This document shows, one piece after another, positions 1 to 17,377 of a stretch of DNA of 64,000 nt (position 1 is its first letter; each line of letters starts with the position of its first letter). The position numbers and the translations under genes are program-made. The DNA is taken from assembly GCA_009761415.1 (NCBI GenBank), contig QUOL01000012.1, positions 186,001 to 250,000 of the forward strand, written 5' to 3'. This DNA is from Sarcomyxa edulis (lineage: Eukaryota; Basidiomycota; Agaricomycetes; Agaricales; Mycenaceae). The notes beneath the pieces are model-generated. The model worked only from the letters and a program-made list of their open reading frames with translations. It made no database searches and was not told the origin of the DNA.

Positions 1-1713
1 GGAAACAGGAGGAGACGAGGGTGGCAGCTGCATATTGGTCCGCTTTGAAGGGGGTCTTGTCGACATAGGTATTGGAGGTGGAGGTGGAGGTGGAGGTGGA
101 GGTGGTTGAGACACTGACACTGAAGATCCGCCAACAGCTTCAGGTGGTTGTTGAACGGGACGAGACACCAAAGGTGCAGAAGGCGCTTGCGCCAGAGAAT
201 GTGGTTGCAACGTAGACGCCGAAGGCGCTTGTGCTAGAGATGATTGCGCCGTAGACGCTGAGGGCGCTTGCGCCAGTGGTTGAGACAGAGACACGAATAC
301 TGAAGCTGGCACAGGACGTGATGGAGAGGGAGCAGGAGGTGCAGGTGTTGGTGGAGCAGCAGACTCCAGCAGCGAAGAAATTGGACGGAATGGGGAAGAA
401 GCAGGCTGCTGCTTCAGTGCAAAAGGTGCAGGTGGTCGTGGAGTAGCAGACCCTGGCACAGAAAGTTGTCGAGACAAGGAAAGAGATGCGTCGTTCGATG
501 TTACATGCATGGGACGTGCTCGCAAAGCAGTTGATATGGAGTCTGACACCGCGCCAGCCTGTGGGGCAGAAGGAACAAACCTGGACATGGTTTGTTCGAA
601 TTCTGGACCTAAATCTTCTGAACAAGGGCCTTTATCCCTGTACGTTGCAACCGGGCGAGGCGTGATGTCCCTGTCCTCGTTGTTGCTTGTTTGCAACCTG
701 GCGATGGGAGAAAAGTAACGAGTATTGGGGGCGTTTTCTTTTGCCCGAGAGAGATGGAGGGGAGTCCGTTTAGTGAGTCCATCTACGAGGGTGGTAGGAC
801 GGTCACGAAACCGATCGTCCAGTGAACAACGGTGTGGGTCTGAAACTTGTTGAGAGGCTTGCGGTACGGACGTCGAGGGACGTTGGACGAAGGCGGATAT
901 TGACTTGTAGGTTGGTAGCTCGATGTACAATTCACTGTCAGACGTATTAGCTCCTGGCAAATATTAGAATCTAGATATACAGACTCACCTCTGCCGTGGG
1001 ACAGAGCTTTTCCCAGCCCTATCCATTGTGTTTGTACTAGACGGACCAGAGCTGTAAGATATTTTCTTAGGTCAGCATTGTGTCTTGAAGGTAGAAATAA
1101 GGTGTACGTGTTCGTTCACAGATACGAAGGACATAAGAGTCAACTTCGTACATGTGAACACTGAATGTCTTCGTGGACATGAGAGTCAACTCGAAGACAT
1201 TCACGTCTGCAGTGGACATGAGAGTCAACAATGCAGATGGCGAGAAGTGATATGATTGACTACATAGGCATCCTAGACTAACCTAGCCTCTCCATGGGAT
1301 GGCTTGTCTTTGCCTGAATTCACTACCTTCGCCTGCAATTTTTTTTTCATGGTGTCCTTTCCCTGATGCACAATGAGTCAGTAGTTCACATAACGAGTTT
1401 TTAATGAAGTACCTTCTGAGGAGGGCCAACCTTGCGCCCAGGTCTTGGGTTATCATGCAACGACTCGTCTTCATCGGCATTGGAAAAGGAGACAGAAGTG
1501 GCTTTGCGTTTCTGTAACGAGGCAAGTGAGTTAACAAAAAAGCAAGTAATTGAACCCAAACTTCACCTTGCCATGAGGAGCGGGTGTCGCAACGTCTTGG
1601 GGAGTAGAGGCTACATTGGTAGAGGATGCTGCATTGCTAGCAGCCGCGTTGGGAGGCTGACTCGCAAGCCTAGCACTAGAACAAGTTCGAAGTCCGGGAG
1701 CTGTTGGGGCCAT
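1..1713 (-). pseudogene. Left-arm copy of the Ser/Pro-rich gene, running off the window
   Basis: This is the mirror copy of the gene starting at 11521. The ATG lies at 1713-1711 and the exons follow the same pattern: 49 codons, then 33, then 12, then a long exon entering the Pro/Ser-rich region with a run of eight or more prolines near 75-105. I found no difference from the right copy. The 3' part, including the conserved C-terminal region, would lie to the left of position 1. It may be a complete gene or a truncated duplicate. I do not recognise the product. Confidence 0.55.
1114..1237. other. Array of three hairpins with a constant loop (left arm)
   Basis: Three stem-loops occupy 1114-1159, 1163-1202 and 1206-1237. 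Each encloses the loop GACATRAGAGTCAA. The stems differ completely in sequence but pair internally: about 14 of 16 positions in the first, 11 bp in the second, 6 bp in the third. The array lies in an intron-like gap of the minus-strand gene copy. The same hairpins occur at 11997-12120. Confidence 0.8.
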
Positions 1714-1858
1714 AGTAACGCAAGGGCAGCGATATCGTTATTGTTGACGACGTTGAGGATGCGCAAAACGCGCTGGAATGAGAGAACACAGTGCTGGTCT
1801 GCAATGCCACGTAAGCAATGCGTCTGATAACTCGTAGGGATGGGCTTTCAATGTTGAG

Positions 1859-1954
1859 CCCAGAGAAGACATAAGAGTCAATGCTCTAGGGAGCACAACG
1901 GACATAAGAGTCAATGTCGTGCTCCCCGAAGAGGACATAAGAGTCAACTCTTCG
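1859..1954. other. Second hairpin array with the same constant loop (left arm)
   Basis: Three adjoining stem-loops lie at 1859-1891, 1889-1926 and 1927-1954, each with loop GACATAAGAGTCAA. Stems are CCCAGAG/CTCTAGGG (one bulge), GGGAGCAC/GTGCTCCC and CGAAGAG/CTCTTCG. The array is about 145 bp upstream of the minus-strand ATG, in the gene leader. It mirrors 11280-11375. Confidence 0.8.
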
Positions 1955-2628
1955 TGCTCTGATTGAAGTAGAGACGAGAGGGGAGGAGGAAATGTGCTTA
2001 CCAGGAGGAATAAAACGAAAAAACACTAAGCGGAAGTACGGATAACGAGAGTGGAAAGAATATGAGAGAAGGTGTGGAAGAGTGATGAAGAGAGAGAGAG
2101 AGAAAGAGACTGTACGCGGGATAATGGAAGGGAAAAATTGTGTAAGCTATTTGGCGACGACCCCAACGAGTTCACGTGTTACGTGTAAACAGCCCCTATA
2201 CTATTGTATGTACTAGCACAAGAACATAACAATTAGAACATTGAACCACCTTTGAAGATAGAAAAGACTTACCATGTGAATCGACCGGCACAACCTGAAA
2301 ATCCAAAAAAATTGCAAAAATTGACGGTGCTTATAGCACGTCAATAGTCTATGTCCTGCTGTCTATGCTGGACAATTCCAATGAGAATCTGCAAGAGAAG
2401 TTGCAACCAAAGGCCAAAGGGACTCACCTTGTAGGTAAATAGAAATAACCATAGATCCCAATTAAATCTCGATGACTAACGGTGCGTGTTCTACGTTTAT
2501 GTGCCAACTTGTCAAAGAGAACGGTGAGGCGTTGAATGAAGAGACTTACCTCACGAGACAAAATATGTAGTATAGAAACATGTGCCTCCCAAAAAAGATA
2601 AAAAAAAAGACAAGAAAATGTCCGTATA

Positions 2629-4531
2629 CATCAGGAAACTGCACTTTTCCCTAGAGCACCCTGAGGGTAAGCCGGAGCTCCCCAGAGCTTCCCAGAGCTT
2701 CTCTGAGCTTCTCAGAGATCCCAGAGCTTCAGAGCACTCAGAGCGCCCTGGGGAGCTTTAGAGACAAGTTACCTTAGCCAGAGATCTTAAAGATGTCATG
2801 GGGTATCCTGGGGCTAATTCAGAGCAATCCTAGATAATCTCAGTGCTACTCTGGATAATCCCAGTGCTACCTCAGATAACCTCAGTGCCTGTCAGATCTA
2901 TTGAGTGTAGTTCAGAGCTTTTAGAAATATCACATTTTCTTGCATACAAGTCAAGTTTTATTCAATCAAACACATATATTCATAGTCTTCTATAACTACA
3001 AGAGAGATAAAAAAAGGGGAAATAGTAGGGAAAAGGGTGGAGATAGTATAGGGAGGTGACAAAAAGGTTGGGAGGTGGTGAAAAGAAGTAGGAGGTGAAA
3101 AAGAGCTGGGGGAGGGTGCAAAAGAGATGGGGGAGGGTGGAGAAAGGTAGAAAAAGGTACAAGGGGATGGATTTAAGGTAGGGGGAGGGACAAAGAGGTG
3201 GGAAAAGGTAAAAAGAGGTGGAGAAGGTGGAGAAAGGTGAAGGGAAGGTGGGGAGAGGTGGTAAGAGGTAAAAAGAGGTAGGGGAAGGTGGAGAAATGTA
3301 AAAGGGAGGTGGTGGGAGGTACAAAGAGGTGGGGGGAGGTAGAGGAAGGGGAAAAGAGGCAGAAAAAGATGGTGAAAGGTGAAAGGGAGGTGAGAGAGGT
3401 CAAAAAAGGTGTGGGGAGGTATGGGGAGGTAGAGGAAGGTGATAAGAGGTAGGGGAAGGTGATAAGAGGTAGGGGAAGGTGAAGAGGGAGGTATGAAGAG
3501 ATCTAAAGAGGTAGAAGCAGGTGGAAGATGGTACAAAGAGATGGGGAAGGTGAAGGAAGGTGAAGGAAATATAGGGAAGGCAAAAAGAGGTGGAGAATGG
3601 TAGAAAGAGGTAGAGGGTGATAGAGGGGGGTAGAGGGTGGTGAAAAAAGTGGTGAAAAGATGGTGATTGATATGCAAAAGATACAACATATCTTCTTTCC
3701 CTGTTCCTGGTTTCTTCCTTCCCATCTCTAAGCTCTCCATCCTCCAGGTTATTGGTAGGATCTAGAAGCAGAATATATGAGCAGAAAGGACACAAAAAGA
3801 AACATATCTACAGCAGCAAAAATGACAGCAAAATTGCCATGTCACCAATTGCTGTGCTCCAGCTTCTTCAAAGAGCGGATTAGTAAGCCAAGATGACCAG
3901 GAACACTGGTATTGAGGATGTAGATGATAGAGCAATTAGTGGAAAGAAGAGGGAGGAAGGTGGAAAGAGGAAGAGGAAGAAAGGAGGGAGGAAGAAGGGT
4001 GATGAGCTGGCAGCCAAGTTCGCTTTCAGAGTGACGTGACACCATCACATGTGCAATGTCACGTCACACAACGAGCGAATTTCTCTAAGTCCAAAATGTG
4101 TTTGTATAAGAGGCTATACCTCAGGTTGATAGGACGAAGATAGTCATGCACATACATGGTTTTGTAGACTATTTGTTAAGTTGTCAGTTTTTGAAGTCAT
4201 GTGCTGGTTAAGTGAAGGTTCCGAGTTCAATCCTTGCTGAATGCATTTATTTTCTTCGATGTCCTAGTCATCCGAAATCTGTTTTTTACTCTATTTTACA
4301 TCCTTTTTTAATGGTATGTCAGAGCATCCCAGGGTGTCTGAGGTACTCTGGGAAACTACTTATTCCTAGGGCATCTCAGAAAGCTCTCAGACAACTCTCA
4401 GAGCTTCTCAGAGCTTCTCAGAGTCTCTCAGAGCATTCAGAGCTCTTAAAATACCCTGAGATGCTCTGAGATGCTTTGGGAAGCTTTTGGTTCTCTCAGA
4501 GCATGTGAGAGACAAGTGACTTTTCCTGATG
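2629..4531 (+). mobile_element. Non-autonomous Plavaka-like element, family A (left arm)
   Basis: The element is 1903 bp. It begins CATCAGGAAA and ends TTTCCTGATG, with TA on both sides (2627-2628 and 4532-4533), giving a 2-bp target duplication. Both ends carry clustered CTCTGAG/CTCAGAG subterminal repeats. The middle (about 3000-3660) is a long purine-rich tract with AGGT every 8-12 nt. Downstream come an 11-bp-arm palindrome (GTGACGTGACA...TGTCACGTCAC, about 4031-4068) and a tRNA-like box pair near 4205-4233. It has no transposase. The proline-rich reading frames inside are by-products of the simple repeat. Confidence 0.85.
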
Positions 4532-4533
4532 TA

Positions 4534-4709
4534 TCCTTTCGATAGTTCCGCCTTGCGCCTCACATCTTTGTTCTGACTTCTCGTGTTTTTCTGGTGAGTT
4601 ACATCCCCGTCTTCGTCGTTACTCGAGTGCTGACCTGTCTCTTAGAACATCATATACTTGTCCTCGTAAGTCCGCAATCCACATCATCCGACATGCTGCA
4701 ACCAGACAA
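4534..4709. other. Short flank between the left arm and the Plavaka end
   Basis: This 176 bp single-copy stretch lies between the family A element and the Plavaka terminus. It contains splice-like signals (GGTGAGTTAC, then CTCTTAG, then GTAAGTCC), so it may be remnant exon/intron sequence. I cannot assign a product. Confidence 0.4.
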
Positions 4710-4952
4710 CAGCAGGAAAAATCCCTTTGGCTCAGCTTACCCTGAGACCTGAGACAGGATCCAAGATATCTCAAGGTATCTTAAAGCCACTCAGGGAGAT
4801 TCAGGTCAACCTGGGAACTCCTGGATAATAGTTGTAATTCGAAGTCACCTCAGAGCATCCCAAACTATCTTTGGATACCTTTGCCTAACTTGTCTGAGAG
4901 CAATAAATAGATAATGTATTTCATCTCTACCAAATAGTTTTATAGGTATATA

Positions 4953-4991
4953 CAGTGGCGAGCAAAAGTGTTGCACGCGTGTGACTGTCAC
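4953..4991. repeat. Tc1 terminal inverted repeat, left
   Basis: 39 bp, the exact reverse complement of 6491-6529. Expected binding and cleavage site of the element's own transposase. Confidence 0.95.
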
Positions 4992-5217
4992 ACAAGATCA
5001 TCATGCTTCCCTCGGACGATGGACTCTTTCACTGGTCAATAACCTTTTCCTTGAAGTACTGTATGTTGGGTATATAGAGTATATATAATCAAAATAAATT
5101 CTCAAATTTTTCCCAAGGAAATGATGTGAAGAAAAAATTCTTCAAAATTTGTGGGTGTAACCATTTTGGCCGAAGAGCTCCAGCATACGGAGGAGGTAGA
5201 AATAAAACTGACTAATA

Positions 5218-6234
5218 CTAATATTTTGTATATCTTCCATGAGCCCTCCTGAGTGCATCTACCCGGCGGGGCATAGAGGCATATAATCCCTGAATCGAGG
5301 CAACATCTAATTTTACCCATTCTTCCTTCAATGCCTCCCATAGCTCATCGAGATTCCGGGGCAAAGGATTACGGGCGCGAAGCTTATGCTCAAGGAAGTC
5401 CCATGTATGCTCGATGATGTTCATATCTGGGGAGGAAGGCGGCCACGGCAGGACTTCGATGTTGTGACTCTCAAACCAAGTAGTTGCGAGGCGTGATGTG
5501 TGCTTCGGGTCGTGGTCCTGCTGGAAGATGATGTCACCGGGGCTAGTCGAGATGTCGGAGAGGGATGCAAGGAGTGACGTGGATAGGATTTTGCAGTACT
5601 GTTTGCCGTTCATGTGCCCTACAACGCGGTGAAGCCTTCCCGTCCCATTCCAAGAAATACACCCCCAGACCATCAAGCTCCCACCACCATGTTTCACCAC
5701 CTTTTTGACATTCCTTGGGAGGAATTCTTCTCCAGGGCGCCTCCTACAATATTGTTTCCCATCCGACCCAAAAAGATTGAATTTAGACTCATCACTGAAT
5801 ATAACTTTCTGCCAGTCCTTTTCTGACCAGTCACCGAATTGTCTTGCCCATGCACTCCGCTTTCTGATGTGAGCCGCGGACAGAAAAGGCTTGCTACGAC
5901 GAAGACGACCATTCAATCCAACACTGCAAAGTGCCCTACGGACTGTCCATATACTAACATCCGGGAAAAGGATCCTTTTAACATCGCAAGCATCACTGGC
6001 CTGGCCACTTGTGACAGCTCTCGCAGCTTGACGAATGCAGTGTGGGGTTAGGAGTTTCGGGCGACCTGTTTTTGGTTTGGTAGCATAGTAAGCATGCGTG
6101 GTACGAATTTTCTTCCAATTCCGTGCGACGGTTGTACGGTGGATGCCGAGAGTTTGGCCAATTTCTGTAAATGTCTGTCCTCGATCGTGAAGAAGTTCAA
6201 TGGCCCGTTTTTTTGTGGGGGTGCAGAGTACCAT
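5218..6234 (-). CDS. Tc1/mariner DD34E transposase
   Basis: A cut-and-paste transposase of 338 aa, a typical length for Tc1. The frame opens upstream, but the first ATG in frame is at 6234, and the protein from there starts in the helix-turn-helix region (RAIELLHDRGQTFTEIGQ, then HRTTVARNWKKI). A GRPK motif follows the DNA-binding part. Catalytic residues are the Asp of VIFSDESKF, the Asp of FQQDHDPKHTS and the Glu of MNIIEHTW. There are 34 residues between the last two, hence DD34E. A GGGSLMVWGCISW segment is also typical of the family. I see no stop or frameshift. Expected to act in the nucleus on the 39-bp ends. An intron is not needed to explain the frame. Confidence 0.93.
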   Translation of the reverse strand: MVLCTPTKKRAIELLHDRGQTFTEIGQTLGIHRTTVARNWKKIRTTHAYYATKPKTGRPKLLTPHCIRQAARAVTSGQASDACDVKRILFPDVSIWTVRRALCSVGLNGRLRRSKPFLSAAHIRKRSAWARQFGDWSEKDWQKVIFSDESKFNLFGSDGKQYCRRRPGEEFLPRNVKKVVKHGGGSLMVWGCISWNGTGRLHRVVGHMNGKQYCKILSTSLLASLSDISTSPGDIIFQQDHDPKHTSRLATTWFESHNIEVLPWPPSSPDMNIIEHTWDFLEHKLRARNPLPRNLDELWEALKEEWVKLDVASIQGLYASMPRRVDALRRAHGRYTKY

Positions 6235-6490
6235 AGTATGAGAATTCACTGACAGAGTTTGGGTGGAAATGAAGGAATGAGCCCTTTCTTCGAGGCGCAA
6301 AGGTGTCGGAGTTTGAGTTTGTTTACACTAGCCAAACAGTGCCCATATACTTGGGCCCTTGATTCCTCACTCAATTTTGGCCATTTTCATTCGTTCTTTT
6401 AGATATACATAGTAGGGATATAGGGCTATCATATGAGCCCAATCATCCTCTGAAAGAGGAGAAATTTCGAGCCTGCCAAAAGCATCTTGC

Positions 6491-6529
6491 GTGACAGTCA
6501 CACGCGTGCAACACTTTTGCTCGCCACTG
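6491..6529. repeat. Tc1 terminal inverted repeat, right
   Basis: 39 bp, the exact reverse complement of 4953-4991, followed by the TA target duplicate at 6530-6531. Confidence 0.95.
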
Positions 6530-8702
6530 TAAGCTCTGCCAGTTATTGAGTATAAAAGAAGAAGATCTATCAAGTACATTATCTGTTGTCCAATTCTTAT
6601 CAGCTTTGCTACCAAAGTTAGGGAAGAGCATGCAACTTTGTCGGATGTGATGAAGTGGAATGATAGAGCCTGGTGGAGTACCATCAGGACGTAATTGTTT
6701 CCTGACACTATACATCAAATGATAAGGCTCAGCGGTGGACTTGAGAGCACTGTACCATTCAACATATGCCAGTGGTTCTTTGGGCCAAGCCACTGGTGAT
6801 GGAAAACCATCTAGTGTTTTAGGTAGAGTGAAGATGACGCGGACACGTCCAACACGGGTACCTTAAAGATAACTTGATTAGATGTGTTAACAGTACAGAA
6901 GACGGATGTGTACCTGCAATACCCGTTGACTCCGCGTCCTCCGTATGAAGTGCAATGACTGTATCAAATCTGCCAGATTCTCCTGAAGGGGACTCAGGAT
7001 TTGCCTTCACCACATCGCATTCCTCCTCTCCATCTTTGAGATTTACGGGATGAAATTTGAAAAGGTAGAAGACATCAAGACGGTCAAAAGGAAGAGGATA
7101 AATATGAGAACGACGTGTGCTTGTGAGATTGGGAAGGATTGAGTTGAGATATTCTTTGAGACGGTCTGAAAACCCTAGAGCATGATGAGTCTTTTCAATG
7201 GCAACAATTGATTTTGAAGGATGAGAAGGGTTTTTAGCAATGGATATTGAGTTTCCAGCAGAATTACGCGCTAGCGGTGGTTGTGGGGGTCGGCGCCTTT
7301 CTTCTAGCCAAGAGAGGTAATTTTCAAAGGACGCAACCTTCTCCTGTCTGGAAAGCCACATAATCATTTGAGGAAATTTGTCGCGTGAGTTGGAGGCCCT
7401 CCAGCCTTTCTTGGCAAAGTCTATATGAAGCCGCTCAAACATCTCTGTGTTGTAGTTGTCGGTTGTACCAAAGAATTGAATGGAACGGACGTAGTGGATG
7501 AGGGAATGAAATTTGGGTATGTTGAAGTCATCGCGTATGCGGATATCAATAAAGTATTGGCGATTGGTGTGAAATAATTTGAGAGCATCGGTCATGTAGC
7601 CCAAGGTGGTATTATCGTGGGTGGAGTACTGAGCTAGATAAATAAAGTCTAAGAGAGCGCGGGTTGCTGTGATAGCCTGACGGGGAAGAACGCCCACCAG
7701 ACAGCCTAGCAATATTTTGGCCATGTTCTTCCGCTCTAGGCAGGGGGGAGACAGCGTATGCGCTGGTCTAGCTCAGCTTCCGTCATCGCACGCTGGCACC
7801 ACTCAATCAGGTGCTTTATCACCCCCTGGTACAGTTGGTGAAGAACATCAGGCGTCACAGCCATATGAATGTCGGTGTAGGGAAAACCTTGCCAGAAGGG
7901 AGTATAGACGCTGCCGGAGACTTCGTTTTGCATGCAGGCTTTATGAAATTTAGCAGTGGATGTACTGGGACGTTTAGCTTCTTCTATGATGTGAATTGTC
8001 CATTCAGGGTTACGAGGAGCAGAGGGCTTGAGATCTTGGAGGTCGGCGGCACTGACTTGGCACTTGGGACATGTACCGTTCTTGGTACAGGTCACCAAAC
8101 ACTGCTCTGGAAAGTCGGCCACATAAGATGCAAGGATGGGATGCACCATACATACAGCACCGTCCCCCCCCGTCATCTCCACACCACTTCTCCCAGCTTC
8201 CTTCAAGGGCGCAAGAATGTGTCGCATGGATTCATGGAAAAGACGTTGGTAACGCGCGGTATGTTCTCGCTGAGATATTCCGTCATCAGAGATTTTGTCG
8301 ACCGAGAGGTATCCCAGCAGGATGCAGGCGCGTTTAGAGGGTTTGCGACGGATGGATTTGGGTAAGTTTCCTAGAGTGAGATAGATGGGATATGCCGCTT
8401 TACTTCCAGAAAACTGAGTGAGTTGCGTCTTGTCTGTAGCGATGATGATAGGAGCCAAGGCATGGCCCTCTGGGAGCATGTCCTAGAGAACGTACATTAG
8501 TATTACACTTGGGTATAATGAAGCATACGTACCTGGACAGCATGCCACCATTTTCCTGTCCACATCTCTGTATATATCTTATTCTGCCTCCCGGAGTCTG
8601 AGAAGATCTTTCTTGGGGCATAGACGATGTGCTCCGCATGACAAGGGTCACCCCAAAGGCTCTTGATTACAGCAAGTGCGTTTCGGTATCGTATAACGTG
8701 TA

Positions 8703-10605
8703 CATCAGGAAAAGTCACTTGTCTCTCACATGCTCTGAGAGAACCAAAAGCTTCCCAAAGCATCTCAGAGCATCTCAGGGTATTTTAAGAGCTCTGAATG
8801 CTCTGAGAGACTCTGAGAAGCTCTGAGAAGCTCTGAGAGTTGTCTGAGAGCTTTCTGAGATGCCCTAGGAATAAGTAGTTTCCCAGAGTACCTCAGACAC
8901 CCTGGGATGCTCTGACATACCATTAAAAAAGGATGTAAAATAGAGTAAAAAACAGATTTCGGATGACTAGGACATCGAAGAAAATAAATGCATTCAGCAA
9001 GGATTGAACTCGGAACCTTCACTTAACCAGCACATGACTTCAAAAACTGACAACTTAACAAATAGTCTACAAAACCATGTATGTGCATGACTATCTTCGT
9101 CCTATCAACCTGAGGTATAGCCTCTTATACAAACACATTTTGGACTTAGAGAAATTCGCTCGTTGTGTGACGTGACATTGCACATGTGATGGTGTCACGT
9201 CACTCTGAAAGCGAACTTGGCTGCCAGCTCATCACCCTTCTTCCTCCCTCCTTTCTTCCTCTTCCTCTTTCCACCTTCCTCCCTCTTCTTTCCACTAATT
9301 GCTCTATCATCTACATCCTCAATACCAGTGTTCCTGGTCATCTTGGCTTACTAATCCGCTCTTTGAAGAAGCTGGAGCACAGCAATTGGTGACATGGCAA
9401 TTTTGCTGTCATTTTTGCTGCTGTAGATATGTTTCTTTTTGTGTCCTTTCTGCTCATATATTCTGCTTCTAGATCCTACCAATAACCTGGAGGATGGAGA
9501 GCTTAGAGATGGGAAGGAAGAAACCAGGAACAGGGAAAGAAGATATGTTGTATCTTTTGCATATCAATCACCATCTTTTCACCACTTTTTTCACCACCCT
9601 CTACCCCCCTCTATCACCCTCTACCTCTTTCTACCATTCTCCACCTCTTTTTGCCTTCCCTATATTTCCTTCACCTTCCTTCACCTTCCCCATCTCTTTG
9701 TACCATCTTCCACCTGCTTCTACCTCTTTAGATCTCTTCATACCTCCCTCTTCACCTTCCCCTACCTCTTATCACCTTCCCCTACCTCTTATCACCTTCC
9801 TCTACCTCCCCATACCTCCCCACACCTTTTTTGACCTCTCTCACCTCCCTTTCACCTTTCACCATCTTTTTCTGCCTCTTTTCCCCTTCCTCTACCTCCC
9901 CCCACCTCTTTGTACCTCCCACCACCTCCCTTTTACATTTCTCCACCTTCCCCTACCTCTTTTTACCTCTTACCACCTCTCCCCACCTTCCCTTCACCTT
10001 TCTCCACCTTCTCCACCTCTTTTTACCTTTTCCCACCTCTTTGTCCCTCCCCCTACCTTAAATCCATCCCCTTGTACCTTTTTCTACCTTTCTCCACCCT
10101 CCCCCATCTCTTTTGCACCCTCCCCCAGCTCTTTTTCACCTCCTACTTCTTTTCACCACCTCCCAACCTTTTTGTCACCTCCCTATACTATCTCCACCCT
10201 TTTCCCTACTATTTCCCCTTTTTTTATCTCTCTTGTAGTTATAGAAGACTATGAATATATGTGTTTGATTGAATAAAACTTGACTTGTATGCAAGAAAAT
10301 GTGATATTTCTAAAAGCTCTGAACTACACTCAATAGATCTGACAGGCACTGAGGTTATCTGAGGTAGCACTGGGATTATCCAGAGTAGCACTGAGATTAT
10401 CTAGGATTGCTCTGAATTAGCCCCAGGATACCCCATGACATCTTTAAGATCTCTGGCTAAGGTAACTTGTCTCTAAAGCTCCCCAGGGCGCTCTGAGTGC
10501 TCTGAAGCTCTGGGATCTCTGAGAAGCTCAGAGAAGCTCTGGGAAGCTCTGGGGAGCTCCGGCTTACCCTCAGGGTGCTCTAGGGAAAAGTGCAGTTTCC
10601 TGATG
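8703..10605 (-). mobile_element. Non-autonomous Plavaka-like element, family A (right arm)
   Basis: Exact reverse complement of 2629-4531: TIR CATCAGGAAA, TA at 8701-8702 and 10606-10607. The pyrimidine-rich strand of the central tract (about 9575-10235) is on plus here. The inner flank is Plavaka coding sequence and the outer flank is the leader of the gene at 11521. The two flanks have no evident common origin. Confidence 0.85.
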
Positions 10606-11279
10606 TATACGGACATTTTCTTGTCTTTTTTTTTATCTTTTTTGGGAGGCACATGTTTCTATACTACATATTTTGTCTCGTGAGGTAAGTCTCTTCATTC
10701 AACGCCTCACCGTTCTCTTTGACAAGTTGGCACATAAACGTAGAACACGCACCGTTAGTCATCGAGATTTAATTGGGATCTATGGTTATTTCTATTTACC
10801 TACAAGGTGAGTCCCTTTGGCCTTTGGTTGCAACTTCTCTTGCAGATTCTCATTGGAATTGTCCAGCATAGACAGCAGGACATAGACTATTGACGTGCTA
10901 TAAGCACCGTCAATTTTTGCAATTTTTTTGGATTTTCAGGTTGTGCCGGTCGATTCACATGGTAAGTCTTTTCTATCTTCAAAGGTGGTTCAATGTTCTA
11001 ATTGTTATGTTCTTGTGCTAGTACATACAATAGTATAGGGGCTGTTTACACGTAACACGTGAACTCGTTGGGGTCGTCGCCAAATAGCTTACACAATTTT
11101 TCCCTTCCATTATCCCGCGTACAGTCTCTTTCTCTCTCTCTCTCTTCATCACTCTTCCACACCTTCTCTCATATTCTTTCCACTCTCGTTATCCGTACTT
11201 CCGCTTAGTGTTTTTTCGTTTTATTCCTCCTGGTAAGCACATTTCCTCCTCCCCTCTCGTCTCTACTTCAATCAGAGCA
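10606..11279 (+). promoter_or_regulatory. Leader region with several splice-like micro-exons
   Basis: Sequence between element A and the first hairpin array, upstream of the ATG at 11521. It contains consecutive donor/acceptor-like signals: GAGGTAAGTC near 10682, AAGGTGAGTC near 10805, TTTTCAG/GTTGTGCC near 10939, CATGGTAAGTC near 10960 and CTGGTAAGCAC near 11230. An E-box-type CACGTG lies near 11056. A (CT)n tract occurs near 11125-11145. This suggests a multiply spliced 5' leader, but no protein was recognised. Confidence 0.35.
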
Positions 11280-11375
11280 CGAAGAGTTGACTCTTATGTC
11301 CTCTTCGGGGAGCACGACATTGACTCTTATGTCCGTTGTGCTCCCTAGAGCATTGACTCTTATGTCTTCTCTGGG
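11280..11375 (+). other. Constant-loop hairpin array, leader (right arm)
   Basis: Three stem-loops, each with loop TTGACTCTTATGTC on the sense strand of the downstream gene: CGAAGAG/CTCTTCG, GGGAGCAC/GTGCTCCC and CCCTAGAG/CTCTGGG. The stems differ between units but pair within each unit. The array ends about 145 bp before the ATG at 11521. Confidence 0.8.
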
Positions 11376-11520
11376 CTCAACATTGAAAGCCCATCCCTAC
11401 GAGTTATCAGACGCATTGCTTACGTGGCATTGCAGACCAGCACTGTGTTCTCTCATTCCAGCGCGTTTTGCGCATCCTCAACGTCGTCAACAATAACGAT
11501 ATCGCTGCCCTTGCGTTACT

Positions 11521-14500
11521 ATGGCCCCAACAGCTCCCGGACTTCGAACTTGTTCTAGTGCTAGGCTTGCGAGTCAGCCTCCCAACGCGGCTGCTAGCAA
11601 TGCAGCATCCTCTACCAATGTAGCCTCTACTCCCCAAGACGTTGCGACACCCGCTCCTCATGGCAAGGTGAAGTTTGGGTTCAATTACTTGCTTTTTTGT
11701 TAACTCACTTGCCTCGTTACAGAAACGCAAAGCCACTTCTGTCTCCTTTTCCAATGCCGATGAAGACGAGTCGTTGCATGATAACCCAAGACCTGGGCGC
11801 AAGGTTGGCCCTCCTCAGAAGGTACTTCATTAAAAACTCGTTATGTGAACTACTGACTCATTGTGCATCAGGGAAAGGACACCATGAAAAAAAAATTGCA
11901 GGCGAAGGTAGTGAATTCAGGCAAAGACAAGCCATCCCATGGAGAGGCTAGGTTAGTCTAGGATGCCTATGTAGTCAATCATATCACTTCTCGCCATCTG
12001 CATTGTTGACTCTCATGTCCACTGCAGACGTGAATGTCTTCGAGTTGACTCTCATGTCCACGAAGACATTCAGTGTTCACATGTACGAAGTTGACTCTTA
12101 TGTCCTTCGTATCTGTGAACGAACACGTACACCTTATTTCTACCTTCAAGACACAATGCTGACCTAAGAAAATATCTTACAGCTCTGGTCCGTCTAGTAC
12201 AAACACAATGGATAGGGCTGGGAAAAGCTCTGTCCCACGGCAGAGGTGAGTCTGTATATCTAGATTCTAATATTTGCCAGGAGCTAATACGTCTGACAGT
12301 GAATTGTACATCGAGCTACCAACCTACAAGTCAATATCCGCCTTCGTCCAACGTCCCTCGACGTCCGTACCGCAAGCCTCTCAACAAGTTTCAGACCCAC
12401 ACCGTTGTTCACTGGACGATCGGTTTCGTGACCGTCCTACCACCCTCGTAGATGGACTCACTAAACGGACTCCCCTCCATCTCTCTCGGGCAAAAGAAAA
12501 CGCCCCCAATACTCGTTACTTTTCTCCCATCGCCAGGTTGCAAACAAGCAACAACGAGGACAGGGACATCACGCCTCGCCCGGTTGCAACGTACAGGGAT
12601 AAAGGCCCTTGTTCAGAAGATTTAGGTCCAGAATTCGAACAAACCATGTCCAGGTTTGTTCCTTCTGCCCCACAGGCTGGCGCGGTGTCAGACTCCATAT
12701 CAACTGCTTTGCGAGCACGTCCCATGCATGTAACATCGAACGACGCATCTCTTTCCTTGTCTCGACAACTTTCTGTGCCAGGGTCTGCTACTCCACGACC
12801 ACCTGCACCTTTTGCACTGAAGCAGCAGCCTGCTTCTTCCCCATTCCGTCCAATTTCTTCGCTGCTGGAGTCTGCTGCTCCACCAACACCTGCACCTCCT
12901 GCTCCCTCTCCATCACGTCCTGTGCCAGCTTCAGTATTCGTGTCTCTGTCTCAACCACTGGCGCAAGCGCCCTCAGCGTCTACGGCGCAATCATCTCTAG
13001 CACAAGCGCCTTCGGCGTCTACGTTGCAACCACATTCTCTGGCGCAAGCGCCTTCTGCACCTTTGGTGTCTCGTCCCGTTCAACAACCACCTGAAGCTGT
13101 TGGCGGATCTTCAGTGTCAGTGTCTCAACCACCTCCACCTCCACCTCCACCTCCACCTCCAATACCTATGTCGACAAGACCCCCTTCAAAGCGGACCAAT
13201 ATGCAGCTGCCACCCTCGTCTCCTCCTGTTTCCGAGGCTTCGGATGAGTCTCCAGACAACAACATCACTCGGTCTCCGCCCACGTCTCCTGTACGGCCTC
13301 CTGAAGACGAGGATGAGGGTTTACCTTTCACTGAAAGTGACGACGAGCATCCGACCAATTTCCCGTATCTACATTCAGACGGAACCTCAACCTATCATTA
13401 CGCTTACAACAATGTCTATGGGTTCACCTATGAGGCAAAGGGTTTGGTTTGCGGTGTCGTGACTCCTGAGGACAAGGAGAGTATGTCAAGGATAACTGTT
13501 AAAAATCTGTCTACCCGTAAATTCGTAGAAGTCCCCGCGGGGTGGTTGGCTACAGACATCGTTCAGAAGTATAATCTTACTGACGAAGATATTCTCGGTC
13601 GTCTTAAGGAATTGAGGGGTGGTAAGGACTCGGATAAGACTTCTGATCCAGAAGACATCGAGGAGGATAGCAATGATGATCAGGCCCCTCCACCGCGAAA
13701 AAAATCCATTCAGGAGAGAACGGGTATGGCGAACGAAGATATGTCTATCTTCGAGTCTTCGCCATCAGGTTCCGACTACAGTGAGACTCGCAAAGCTCAT
13801 CGTGCTAAGCGCAGACGACTTGTGTCTTGCGAGTCGTCAGAGGATGACAGCGACGAGTCGTCGTTAGAGGATGAAGACGAGGAGCCTTCTGCGCCTGCTG
13901 GTAAGAAGGGGGGTGGCAAGAGTTCGAAGGGCAAAGAGAAGGCCAAGGTGGCGAGCGGAGGAGATGACAAGGATGATGACGAGAAGAAGACAAAGAAGCT
14001 GGCTGCACGGCGCAAGGGCAAGAAACACGGTACCTACTCGACGGCCGAGTTGGAGGAGATAAATATGTTTGGCGAGGAGATCAACGGTTGTATCGAAGCT
14101 TTTGCTGCTTCGATGGGACGATCCACTCACAGCATCCTCATTAAAGCCGGGCTCAAAGTCGTCAACGCAAGAGCAGACAACCTCGCCAATCTTTACAAGC
14201 AGGTCTACGCTTTAGACCACAAGAAGCCAAAGAACGGTATGTCCTCATTTCTCATCTTGCTGTTGTGTACTGACCGAGTTCAATTCACAGTCCCATTTAC
14301 GGAATGGAACGCCGTTGTCAAGGATGCTTATCGCGCATGGTTGGGTCCCATCACAAAGGCCGATACCGAGGCCCGGGAAGAAAAACGTCAAGAGCTCAAG
14401 TCTCGTCTGTTCGTTGCCGGCAATTCCTCCTCCGACACAGTGCAATCTCCTGCATCTCGCATGAAGACAGCGGCAATGCAATTTTCTCAACTCGTAAGTT

Positions 14501-14581
14501 GGTCCAAAACTTAGGTCTACTTTATTGCATGTATCTAACATTTCTTCAGGCCAAAGCGTACTTGCAATTTGAAGATATCAA
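11521..14581 (+). CDS. Unknown Ser/Pro-rich, acidic protein gene cut by element C
   Basis: ATG at 11521 with small in-phase exons 11521-11667, 11723-11821 and 11872-11907. A long exon runs from about 12281 to 14235, then 14291-14490, then the start of another exon at 14549. The protein begins Ala/Ser-rich with KRKATSVS-type basic stretches. Its middle is Pro/Ser-rich with nine prolines near 13131-13160. A folded-looking segment lies at 13330-13610 (PTNFPYLHSDGTSTYHYAY...VKNLSTRKFVEVPAGWL). Acidic/Ser and Lys-rich tracts occupy 13620-14030. A helical C-terminal segment (TYSTAELEEINMFGEEING...SMGRSTHSILIKAGL, then FTEWNAVVKDAYRAWL) resembles C-terminal domains of large uncharacterised Agaricomycete families. 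The last visible exon is interrupted at 14581 by element C and I cannot find its continuation after 17377. Confidence 0.6.
11997..12120 (+). other. Constant-loop hairpin array, intron (right arm)
   Basis: Three more stem-loops with loop TTGACTCTYATGTC: TCTGCA/TGCAGA, GAATGTCTTCG/CGAAGACATTC (11 bp) and a 16-position stem GTTCACA..TACGAAG with two mismatches. They lie between the small exons ending near 11940 and the next exon near 12182, so they would be in an intron of about 240 nt, longer than the other introns. Confidence 0.8.
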
Positions 14582-17377
14582 CATCAGGAAAACCACTTTG
14601 TCTATATAGTTTGGGTCATATCTATGGAAGACTCCTGTAGACTACTGGGTACTACAGGTCTTATATAGATCACAGTGTGTTCACCTGACACAAAGGAATA
14701 TCTATAAGTGTCTACTGGATACTACATAGGTTGTGTGAAATCTATAAGAGCTTTTCAAAGTAGACTGTAAACCTTTCAGAGACTCTGAGAGGCTATCTAA
14801 ATCTACAGAGCAACCAGTAGATAAATAAGCTATATTGAGATGAGTAACTAGTATATAGTCTAATCCACATATATACTACTCTATCATTGACAAAGAATAC
14901 CCAAAGAAGTAAAGAAACCAGAAGAAAACATGAATTGAAAGTTACGGTACTTTTCTGAGATACAAAAACAACGGTATCACTACAACCACCAGTCTAAATC
15001 CTTCAATCTAGGGATTACTGTGAAGCTGAAGGTGAGGGGAATCTTCATCTGGAGAGATATCAAAGGTCTGAGCAGCGGTGGTAGGTAACAAAGTTGAAAA
15101 AGGTCCAAACATTGAAATTGACAATGGCAACATGTGGTGATGGTAAAAGTGGGATATGGGAAATGGGAAGGAAGGATGAAATAATGGGAGTAAGATAAAA
15201 AAGAATTGGAGCAAGGAATAGTGTGGATAGCTTACGTTCATCTGATCAATCCCCAAAACCTGCAAAATTTCTGAAATCTCTGTTCCTCCACAACCACTGG
15301 TCCAAATCCTTCAACCCAGATATCAACAGAAAGGTAGAGATGAGGGGAAACTGCACCTGAAGAGATATTGAGGGTATGAGCAACAGTGATAGAGAATAAG
15401 TCAAAAAAATGTCAAAACCTCGAAATTGATGAGGAGGATGTCTGGTGATGGTGATGGTGGAATCTGGGGCATGCAAGAGATGGGGGGAATGGTGGGAGTA
15501 GGATAGAAAAGGAATGGAGCATGGGGACATACCAGATCGTCCACAATCATCCAATCTACCCCAAACTCCAAAAACATCGAAAATTCCATATCTCCACAAC
15601 CACAGGACCAAATCCCTTGATCCAGCACTCTACTAGGAGCCCTAAGCGAGTAGAATGTAATGGTAAAGAGACTGGAAGGCCCCAATCAACGATGCCTGGA
15701 AAGGCAAAACTCCGAAATTTGAGGATTGGTGATGCTGATGATGTGGCATCCATATCTCTACAATGAAGGGCTTAAAAACATCGTTCTAAAGGCCCCCAAG
15801 GAGGTCTGATATAGTACTATCCACAGCAAAAAAGACCCAGAGGATCTGAGCAAAAGTGGTGGTGAACCAGGGGGTGGTGGTGATGGGGTGGGTGATGGTG
15901 GAAGTATGGGGCCACCAGTGATCCTATGGTGGAAAGGGAGGTATCCGTAGAAAGGGATGGAAGAGGAGATCAAGATGGTGGAGGAGATGAAAGGGAACAT
16001 ACCATAGATCCAGTGAAACCATCTCATTTGGCCTCTGATGCCAAAAAACACGAAATTGCTCATATCTCCACCACCACTGGGCCAAATTCTTAGACCCAGA
16101 TATCCACAGGAAGCTACAAGTGAGGAGGACCTGCTGAAAGTTACAGCTAAGCGATAGGTCAGAAAACGAACGAGATCAGATAAGGAAACTTCGAAATTGA
16201 GGAGGAGAACATCCCCAATCAGGCTTCCAATGAAGTAGGAATGAAGGGGACCTGAAGAAGAGAGAATAGAAAGGTCTAGGAACCTGGAAAAGAGGATATA
16301 AGTGTGGGGTTAGTGTTCTAGAAGAAAGCATTGGGCACATACCGTCTTCTCCAGAGTGAGTGCTTCCAGTGAAGCAGAGTTGCCAGAAGAACAAGAAGGA
16401 GACTTTTGATGCACCAGATAAACCCAAGATCCAGAAAGTAAAGAGAAGAGAGCAGCAGCAATGAGTGGTGGAGAACGTTTTAACAAGAGCAAGTGGGACT
16501 TAGCAGTAAATTCAGGCCATGTCCCAATTGGGCCTCAACGAGTCCAATGCTTGTGGAGTCCCTATATGGCAACTCTCTCTTCTTTCCTCCACCATGTACA
16601 ACTTCTCATCTCATTTCTCTTTCCCTGAAGCTCTTTCCTATATTGTGTGAGTGGTATCTCATTCAGAACTACCTAACCAGCTAATATCTAGCAGAACATA
16701 TATGTAAATGTTGGACATAGGGATGGATGGATGCCACGTCAGTACGGTGCACAGTATGGATGTACTTTCAGCTCTCCCTTTCTTTTTCACTGATTTTTTC
16801 CCTCTTTTTACAGGCTGTTTTTCTTCCTAGCTGAGTACGTTCATTTTCAAGGTTCTAATCCACATTCACACATTATTTCAGGATATTAGTATGATTTGCA
16901 TATCCAACGCCGGTGGTTCATAAGGTACGTCTCACTCAGTTCCTCATATTATTAATATGTATTCACTGGCTTCACTTCATTATAGAAGATGTCCTTTGGA
17001 CTGGGAGCAGGAACCTTTGATCCCATAGCGTACACTTGTATTATCAGTTTATTTTAATATTATATTTGTTTTGCCGCACTTTGAAAATCTTGATCTAAGT
17101 TGTGTTTATCTATGGTAGAACTCCCTCAGATATACATATCTACTGGTGTCTGCATAGATTGAGTGACATCTACCTGAAGTTGGCATAGATTGAGTGTCGT
17201 CTATCAGGATCTACCAGGATCTACATAGATTGAGTGACATCTACAGCTACTCCTGTAGAAGACAAGGGGGGTATACACGTTCTATATAGATCAGCCAAGT
17301 TCTACCAGGTCTACTGGCACTATGACCTCTATATGGTTCTATGTAGACCCAGGGAGAATTTTTGGGTTTTCCTGATG
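14582..17377. mobile_element. Plavaka-like element, family C
   Basis: The element is 2796 bp. It begins CATCAGGAAAACC and ends GGTTTTCCTGATG, a 13-bp terminal inverted repeat. Its subterminal regions use a different motif from families A, B and D: TATAGAT/ATCTATA and CTACAGGT-type repeats cluster at 14600-14850 and 17100-17350. The flanks are AA before and CA after; CA also occurs one base further left, so the target duplication is unclear. It interrupts the gene ending at 14581. It holds an internal repeat array but no recognisable transposase. Confidence 0.7.
14970..16110 (-). repeat. Diverged ~300-bp repeats inside element C
   Basis: The phrase CCACAACCACTGGTCCAAAT and variants recur near 14978, 15290, 15597 and 16067, at about 310, 310 and 470 bp spacing. 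Each is followed by a CCAGATATCMACAG-like block. On the minus strand each unit is followed by a donor-like signal (GTAAGC near 15234, GTATGT near 15533, 16004 and 16340). This looks like a minus-strand repeated exon/intron array, but no conserved protein emerges. Confidence 0.45.

Follow-up and report, generated by a model that had tools for sequence, protein, structure and literature searches.

The window, i.e. the whole stretch of 64,000 nt from contig QUOL01000012.1 of Sarcomyxa edulis that was analysed here, opens with a large inverted duplication (window 1-16502), the arms of which are about 7.8 kb long, are separated by a spacer of 4.2 kb and differ at one position where they extend past the window edge (Table 1). 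The arms contain only the gene B half of a KDZ transposon, twice, and the window fragment is without gene A and the KDZ domain. Judged from its sequence, the window contains a rearranged, palindromic fragment of such an element, and the palindrome is either a true rearrangement or an assembly artefact. Six copies of a 14-nt loop begin at positions 11287, 11320, 11353, 12006, 12045 and 12091 of the + strand, in agreement with the preliminary description of this DNA, and the - strand carries a mirror set of six loops at 1130-1947. Window 1-4533 is 100% complementary to 8701-13233, so that the two sets have to be counted as one datum. Both arrays, of three loops each, fold better than 200 of 200 shuffled sequences (z -5.6 and -5.4). 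Array 1, the leader triplet of the preliminary description, is probably intronic as well, because it follows a 5' splice site. This 5' site passes the strict test, the branch point fails it and is not canonical, and on inspection of the sequence the intron would end at 11435 or 11461.

Table 1. Features of the palindromic part of the window (window positions).
Feature	Position	Strand	Basis or remark
Inverted duplication, right arm	8701..16502	.	left arm = window 1-4533 plus 3.3 kb left of the window
Spacer between the two arms	4534..8700	.	frames: Plavaka transposase 7736-8482 (-), Tc1-like DDE_3 5218-6327 (-)
Probable 5'-leader intron of gene B with array 1	11233..11461	+	5' site GTAAGC at 11233
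Array 1, closing stem, CAAT..GAGC with GCTC..ATTG, 10 pairs	11269..11386	+	minimum-energy fold; ends approximate
Array 1, hairpin 1, tip TTGACTCTTATGTC at 11287-11300	11277..11310	+	folding of the whole array 1; loop search; itself an input of model R1
Array 1, hairpin 2, tip 11320-11333	11310..11343	+	folding; 39.1 bits with R1, of which it is also an input
Array 1, hairpin 3, tip 11353-11366	11343..11376	+	loop search and folding
Gene B of the KDZ element, ATG at 11521	11521..14514	+	last long open frame 12271-14514, 747 aa
Coding-part intron of gene B with array 2: GTTAGT 11952, CTGAC 12159, CAG to 12182	11952..12182	+	passes both splice tests
Array 2, hairpin 1, tip TTGACTCTCATGTC at 12006-12019	11996..12029	+	loop search, folding, model match
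Array 2, hairpin 2, tip 12045-12058	12035..12068	+	loop search, folding, model match
Array 2, hairpin 3, tip 12091-12104, extended stem GTTCACATGTACGAAG/CTTCGTATCTGTGAAC	12075..12120	+	loop search, folding, model match
Mirror copy of the array 1 intron, tips 1868, 1901, 1934	1773..2001	-	left palindrome arm
Mirror copy of the array 2 intron, tips 1130, 1176, 1215	1052..1282	-	left palindrome arm

We take the arrays together with genes A and B as parts of one KDZ (Kyakuja-Dileera-Zisupton) DNA transposon family, in which A and B are divergently transcribed accessory genes. Gene A has nine matches in the genome, all nine with arrays upstream on the same strand, and 12 relatives including proteins of Melanogaster and Paxillus; it matches no Pfam family above the cut-off, and its structure model gave no informative match in the fold comparison. 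Gene B, the gene of the window, has 16 genome matches, mostly in the gene A loci, and its 747-aa frame is without a Pfam match. The domain scan recognised no RNA-binding domain in either gene. A full KDZ domain (PF18758) lies 3.1-3.4 kb beyond the end of the gene A match in 8 of the 9 copies, with E-values of 7.8e-65 and 7.6e-63 in the two copies scanned (contigs C40 and C27), and more than 30 other KDZ places in the genome have no gene A match nearby. Inverted ends of at least 468 bp with 99-100% identity (C21:115501-115968 with 127894-128361; C40:703085 with 721045-721512) delimit an element of at least 18.4 kb on C40 (703085-721512) and a shortened copy of at least 12.9 kb on C21. The copies C21:115501-128361 and C40:703085-721512 are 94-99% identical, apart from about 5.5 kb including the gene B arrays which C21 is without, and this near-identity points to recent mobility or duplication. 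The Sarcomyxa element shares the KDZ transposase domain and the large size with Kyakuja and KDZ1 (PMC12730594, PMC12810828). Its inverted ends resemble those of KDZ1 of Cryptococcus (about 11 kb, inverted ends of 241 bp), unlike Kyakuja of Laccaria, which is described without inverted ends. The word 'hairpin' is absent from both papers, and their available portions describe no genes A and B with array-bearing introns.

Genome-wide, the exact loop TTGACTCTYATGTC occurs 30 times in 35.6 Mb (40 contigs), and the reversed pattern does not occur at all. These copies are confined to contigs C4 and C16, and all 30 belong to groups of three with spacings of 32-46 nt. The sister loop TTGACTCTNCTGTC and its variants add further copies to this set. 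The degenerate pattern TTGACTCTNBTGTC has 104 matches vs 2 for its control; among the 100 matches listed, 95 are array members and 5 are isolated, and four array members situated past the last listed match are consistent with the remaining four. For TTGACTCCNNYGTC we found 45 matches vs 15 in the control, 32 of them array members and 13 isolated, the latter about as many as chance gives. Most of the matches to these two patterns belong to further arrays, on C12, C21, C27, C28, C34 and C40. Altogether, 60 arrays were counted over 12 loci of this one genome assembly, namely 52 triplets, 5 doublets and 3 singles. A generic hairpin scan of the sequence analysed yielded no second family with a shared loop; its reversed-sequence control is uninformative, because reversal keeps hairpins.

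A few loops stand apart. Of the three isolated loops whose flanks were inspected, the one on C39 has pairing flanks, and those on C13 and C18 do not. The C39 case is a lone hairpin outside any array (L047:4983-5016, - strand; C39:534193), which scores 27 bits with model R1 and is either a chance occurrence or a relic. Furthermore, a single hairpin with the deviant tip TCGCCTCTTATGTC occupies the same intron position in three copies (L038:5234-5247, - strand; L044:5209, - strand; L046:6598, + strand) and is perhaps a decaying array.

The 162 loops of the 12 loci, which were chosen because they bear arrays and in which loops were picked by the loop sequence alone, gave 88 distinct flank pairs with a mean of 7.32 of the 8 inner positions paired. 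When the right flanks were re-dealt among the copies 2000 times, the mean dropped to 4.63 (sd 0.15, maximum 5.18). Reduction of the 88 pairs to 56 diverse hairpins, by leaving out those within 2 mismatches of one already taken, revealed 201 cells changed on both sides of a kept pair vs 67.5 after shuffling, and the covariation score of 0.663 contrasts with 0.205 for shuffled partners and at most 0.235 for partners slid by 1-3 columns. The preliminary description had claimed selection on a structure with a fixed tip, and these values bear it out: the copies are not mostly without pairing flanks, and they pair far better than shuffled ones.

Tip positions 1-7 and 12-14 could not vary in the 162-loop and 56-hairpin sets, because the loops had been chosen by them, and the invariance of the three GAC/GUC pairs among the 56 hairpins likewise concerns bases that were part of the choice. 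The looser test is a search that allowed up to 3 loop mismatches and demanded at least 7 of 8 flank pairs; it found 159 hairpins, of which 154 carry exactly TTGACTCYNNYGTC and all 159 agree at tip positions 3, 5, 6 and 13. At the RNA level the tip consensus is UUGACUCYNNYGUC, and it is unchanged between lineages whose gene A proteins share 51% identity. In the folds, the conserved 14 nt comprise the GAC/GUC stem, a hexaloop and, as a rule, a UU bulge. The 14 nt are thus shared as described before, but the loop is not open throughout, given that GAC can pair with GTC; similarly, the stems do pair with themselves, with some mismatches, but they are not all unrelated, as stem families exist outside the window. 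The stems are free to change as long as pairing holds, while the tip stays fixed. Moreover, G.U mismatches outnumber A.C mismatches in the stems (33 vs 14 distinct contexts, one-sided p 0.004), which compares with 131 vs 120 for shuffled partners.

With regard to the genes, the arrays lie on the sense strand, mostly within short introns, the majority of which belong to the 5' leaders of genes A and B. Two strict splice-signal tests (5' site; branch point plus 3' site) were applied to the 44 distinct arrays that remained once the 3 groups with a single hairpin and all duplicates of an included array had been removed from the 60. On the sense strand, 33 of the 44 passed both tests, compared to 2% of randomly chosen places within these loci and none of the 44 on the opposite strand. 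Eleven arrays fail at least one test, two of them (C16, 66200 and 66550) both, and some of the eleven show a GTAAT 5' site on inspection. The 5' site is situated at a median of 68 nt ahead of the first tip, and the branch point at a median of 57 nt past the last one. In 9 of the 60 arrays the last tip is followed, 88-154 nt further on, by the start codon of gene B, and in 5 by the conserved start of gene A; in the C34 copy, ATA replaces the gene A ATG. The modules closest to the coding sequence therefore fall into the 5' leader, and so do the ones situated further upstream. Exceptions are array 2 of the window and its copies, which are inside the coding part of gene B. Two triplets at C16:66200-66637 (L032:4200-4637, + strand), between genes A and B, have short stems of unrelated sequence (e.g. 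CAGC/GCTG), are without strict splice signals and are possibly exonic leader arrays. Of the three readings offered in the preliminary description, an RNA element of the pre-mRNA fits best, whereas a cruciform bound by a transposase and a self-multiplying small palindrome are less likely. The cruciform is disfavoured by the one-strand splice context and by the inverted end L040:1-468, which contains no such loops; the palindrome is less likely because the copies travel inside a whole transposon. An action as RNA rather than DNA, for which the gene orientation, the one-strand splice context and the excess of G.U over A.C speak, is likely, though not proven.

The three hairpins can form a common fold. 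Single-sequence folding of 30 diverse triplets (arrays without three hairpins or with up to 8 mismatches from another were left out) formed every one of the 90 tips and, in 27 of the 30, a closing stem, which is absent from the folds of two C16 arrays and of window array 2. The alignment comprised 27 of these triplets, as window array 2 and the leader triplets of C16 (66200, 66550) were too unlike the others, and 25 of its 40 consensus pairs showed compensatory changes. The closing stem of most families reads TGGT..ATCCAA/TTGGAT.ACCA; in the two C16 gene A arrays, which are situated in introns, it has a different sequence and keeps its pairing. Because this other sequence still pairs, the closing stem, the three arms and the single tip are kept while stem sequences change. 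According to these computations, three hairpins and usually a closing stem can form a four-way junction, resembling a cloverleaf, that presents the same tip on each arm. The fold stability reached z -4.0 to -10.9 across the arrays folded. The fold energies are the same on both strands (mean -58.3 for sense and -58.0 for antisense; the sense strand is lower in 14 of 30) and therefore favour neither RNA over DNA nor one strand. The preliminary description did not mention that the hairpins come in threes, that a stem usually closes the array, that GAC can pair with GTC inside the tip or that a KDZ transposon carries the arrays. Leaving function aside, we are highly confident of this anatomy of the module, i.e. 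its structure, carrier and position.

Structured RNA in nuclear introns is seldom so clear from one genome, with a fixed tip, changing stems and the usual number of three. A fixed tip on free stems, usually in threes, leads us to infer protein recognition of the tip at several sites, and the position in leader introns suggests the splicing of genes A and B as the controlled step. Hence, we tentatively favour, at a level that falls a little short of probable for the reading as a whole, a transposon-borne intronic RNA module, the tips of which bind one protein and thereby control the splicing of the accessory genes. As a multivalent site, the three tips would bind a single RNA-binding protein, either encoded by the element or a conserved host factor, which would act while the leader introns are still in the pre-mRNA. 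Binding could help or block the splicing of these introns and so set the amount of gene A and gene B products; with an element-encoded protein, a self-limiting loop would result. In favour of this function we count the triplets (52 of 60), the covariation, the sense-strand introns (33 of 44), the fixed tip (154 of 159) and the linkage to KDZ, and against it the equal strand energies, the 11 of 44 failures in the splice tests, the location of array 2 within coding sequence, the absence of a recognised RNA-binding domain from genes A and B and the origin of all observations from a single genome. If true, a fungal DNA transposon would possess a built-in layer of RNA control. A more specific version, in which the element's own protein binds the tips cooperatively and holds back gene A and B splicing according to copy number, is doubtful, albeit worth serious consideration; it would mean that copy number is controlled at the level of the pre-mRNA, through a fold without counterpart among the RNA families searched.

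Other explanations account for part of the data. The fold may act as a splicing scaffold that brings the branch point effectively closer to the 5' site and thereby allows efficient splicing of long leader introns; the tips would then be unbound and fixed for folding or stability. The regular median spacings of 68 and 57 nt given above and the very stable folds agree with such a role, but a scaffold needs pairing only, neither one and the same tip in 154 of 159 hairpins nor three arms, and the closing stem is missing from the folds of two C16 arrays and window array 2, which makes this explanation unlikely. Intron-hosted RNAs can occur as arrays in tandem introns. The three-armed part could accordingly outlive splicing in the form of a small non-coding RNA and titrate a host factor, e.g. 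a silencing or RNA-decay protein; its compact, closed structure and the many near-identical modules per element in tandem introns (e.g. units every 302 bp on C34 and C40) would be in line with this, but no Rfam entry matches at gathering score and the restriction of the arrays to genes A and B would be left unexplained, and we consider it distinctly unlikely. Very unlikely appears a DNA-level element, i.e. single-stranded hairpins or cruciforms to which a transposon protein would bind in the course of replication or transposition: the carrier is a DNA transposon, both strands fold equally well and arrays in mirror orientation stand on either side of the middle region that separates genes A and B, but splice signals occur on one strand only, G.U exceeds A.C and the one inverted end examined (L040:1-468) is free of such loops. 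Finally, a coding repeat (TTG ACT CTN CTG TC = LTLLS, with position 9 as a degenerate codon position) can practically be dismissed: position 9 is any base and the spacing between tips is divisible by three in 85 of 109 cases, but the other 24 break the frame, the third codon positions 3 and 6 are identical in all 159 loosely found hairpins, the frame meets a stop close to the array in 19 of 30 triplets, splice signals enclose most arrays, and coding does not explain the pairing of the stems.

For the protein-bound intronic module that we favour, precedents can be named among known systems, though no relative. A known RNA family is improbable, with no Rfam 15 match at gathering score: the array loci L032, L037, L044 and L045 gave no matches, and window 1-17000 gave eight weak ones, none at gathering score and none over an array. 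Literature searches for a comparable RNA element returned nothing alike, in accordance with the earlier statement that no named element resembles this one. The nearest worked example is MAT2A, whose hairpins hp1-hp6 share one tip sequence on different stems and are read by METTL16; according to the available part of the source, exchange of the hp1 and hp6 stems changed methylation little, and the occupancy of hp1 governs the splicing of a nearby intron (PMC7927073). The likeness consists in a set of hairpins with one shared tip near an intron and with exchangeable stems, which for the arrays is suggested by the covariation. However, the METTL16 tip is UACAGAGAA, and the array tip UUGACUCYNNYGUC is not of this type; moreover, the MAT2A hairpins, as far as the accessible text describes them, reside in the 3' UTR of a vertebrate gene and are neither grouped in threes nor intronic nor transposon-borne (PMC7927073). 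The nearest transposon example is the intron IVS3 of the P element, where the RNA-binding proteins PSI and hrp48 hold back splicing, i.e. here, too, the expression of a DNA transposon is set by RNA-binding proteins at one of its introns. In contrast to the arrays, the portion of the source at hand describes a linear silencer in the exon upstream of one transposase-gene intron, no hairpin arrays, and known host proteins (PMC7776569). Tip, fold and position thus differ, and neither system is a relative. In yeast SUS1 pre-mRNA, intron structure bears on splicing and intron retention, which is similar with respect to a structure within an intron, a fungal host and an effect on splicing; in the excerpt available, it concerns one gene, without a repeated tip and without a transposon (PMC4691836).

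For the study of such a module, one organism already offers 56 diverse hairpin variants, naturally occurring arrays of three, two or one hairpin, and two apparent recombinants, the stems of which are poorer. The latter are the hairpins L039:3892-3925 (- strand) and L041:5739-5772 (+ strand), each of which combines the left stem of one arm with the right stem of the next. From their sequences they look like deletions through the shared tip, i.e. recombinants between neighbouring hairpins. The L041 hybrid pairs poorly, and together these two hairpins display the effect of tip recombination on the fold.
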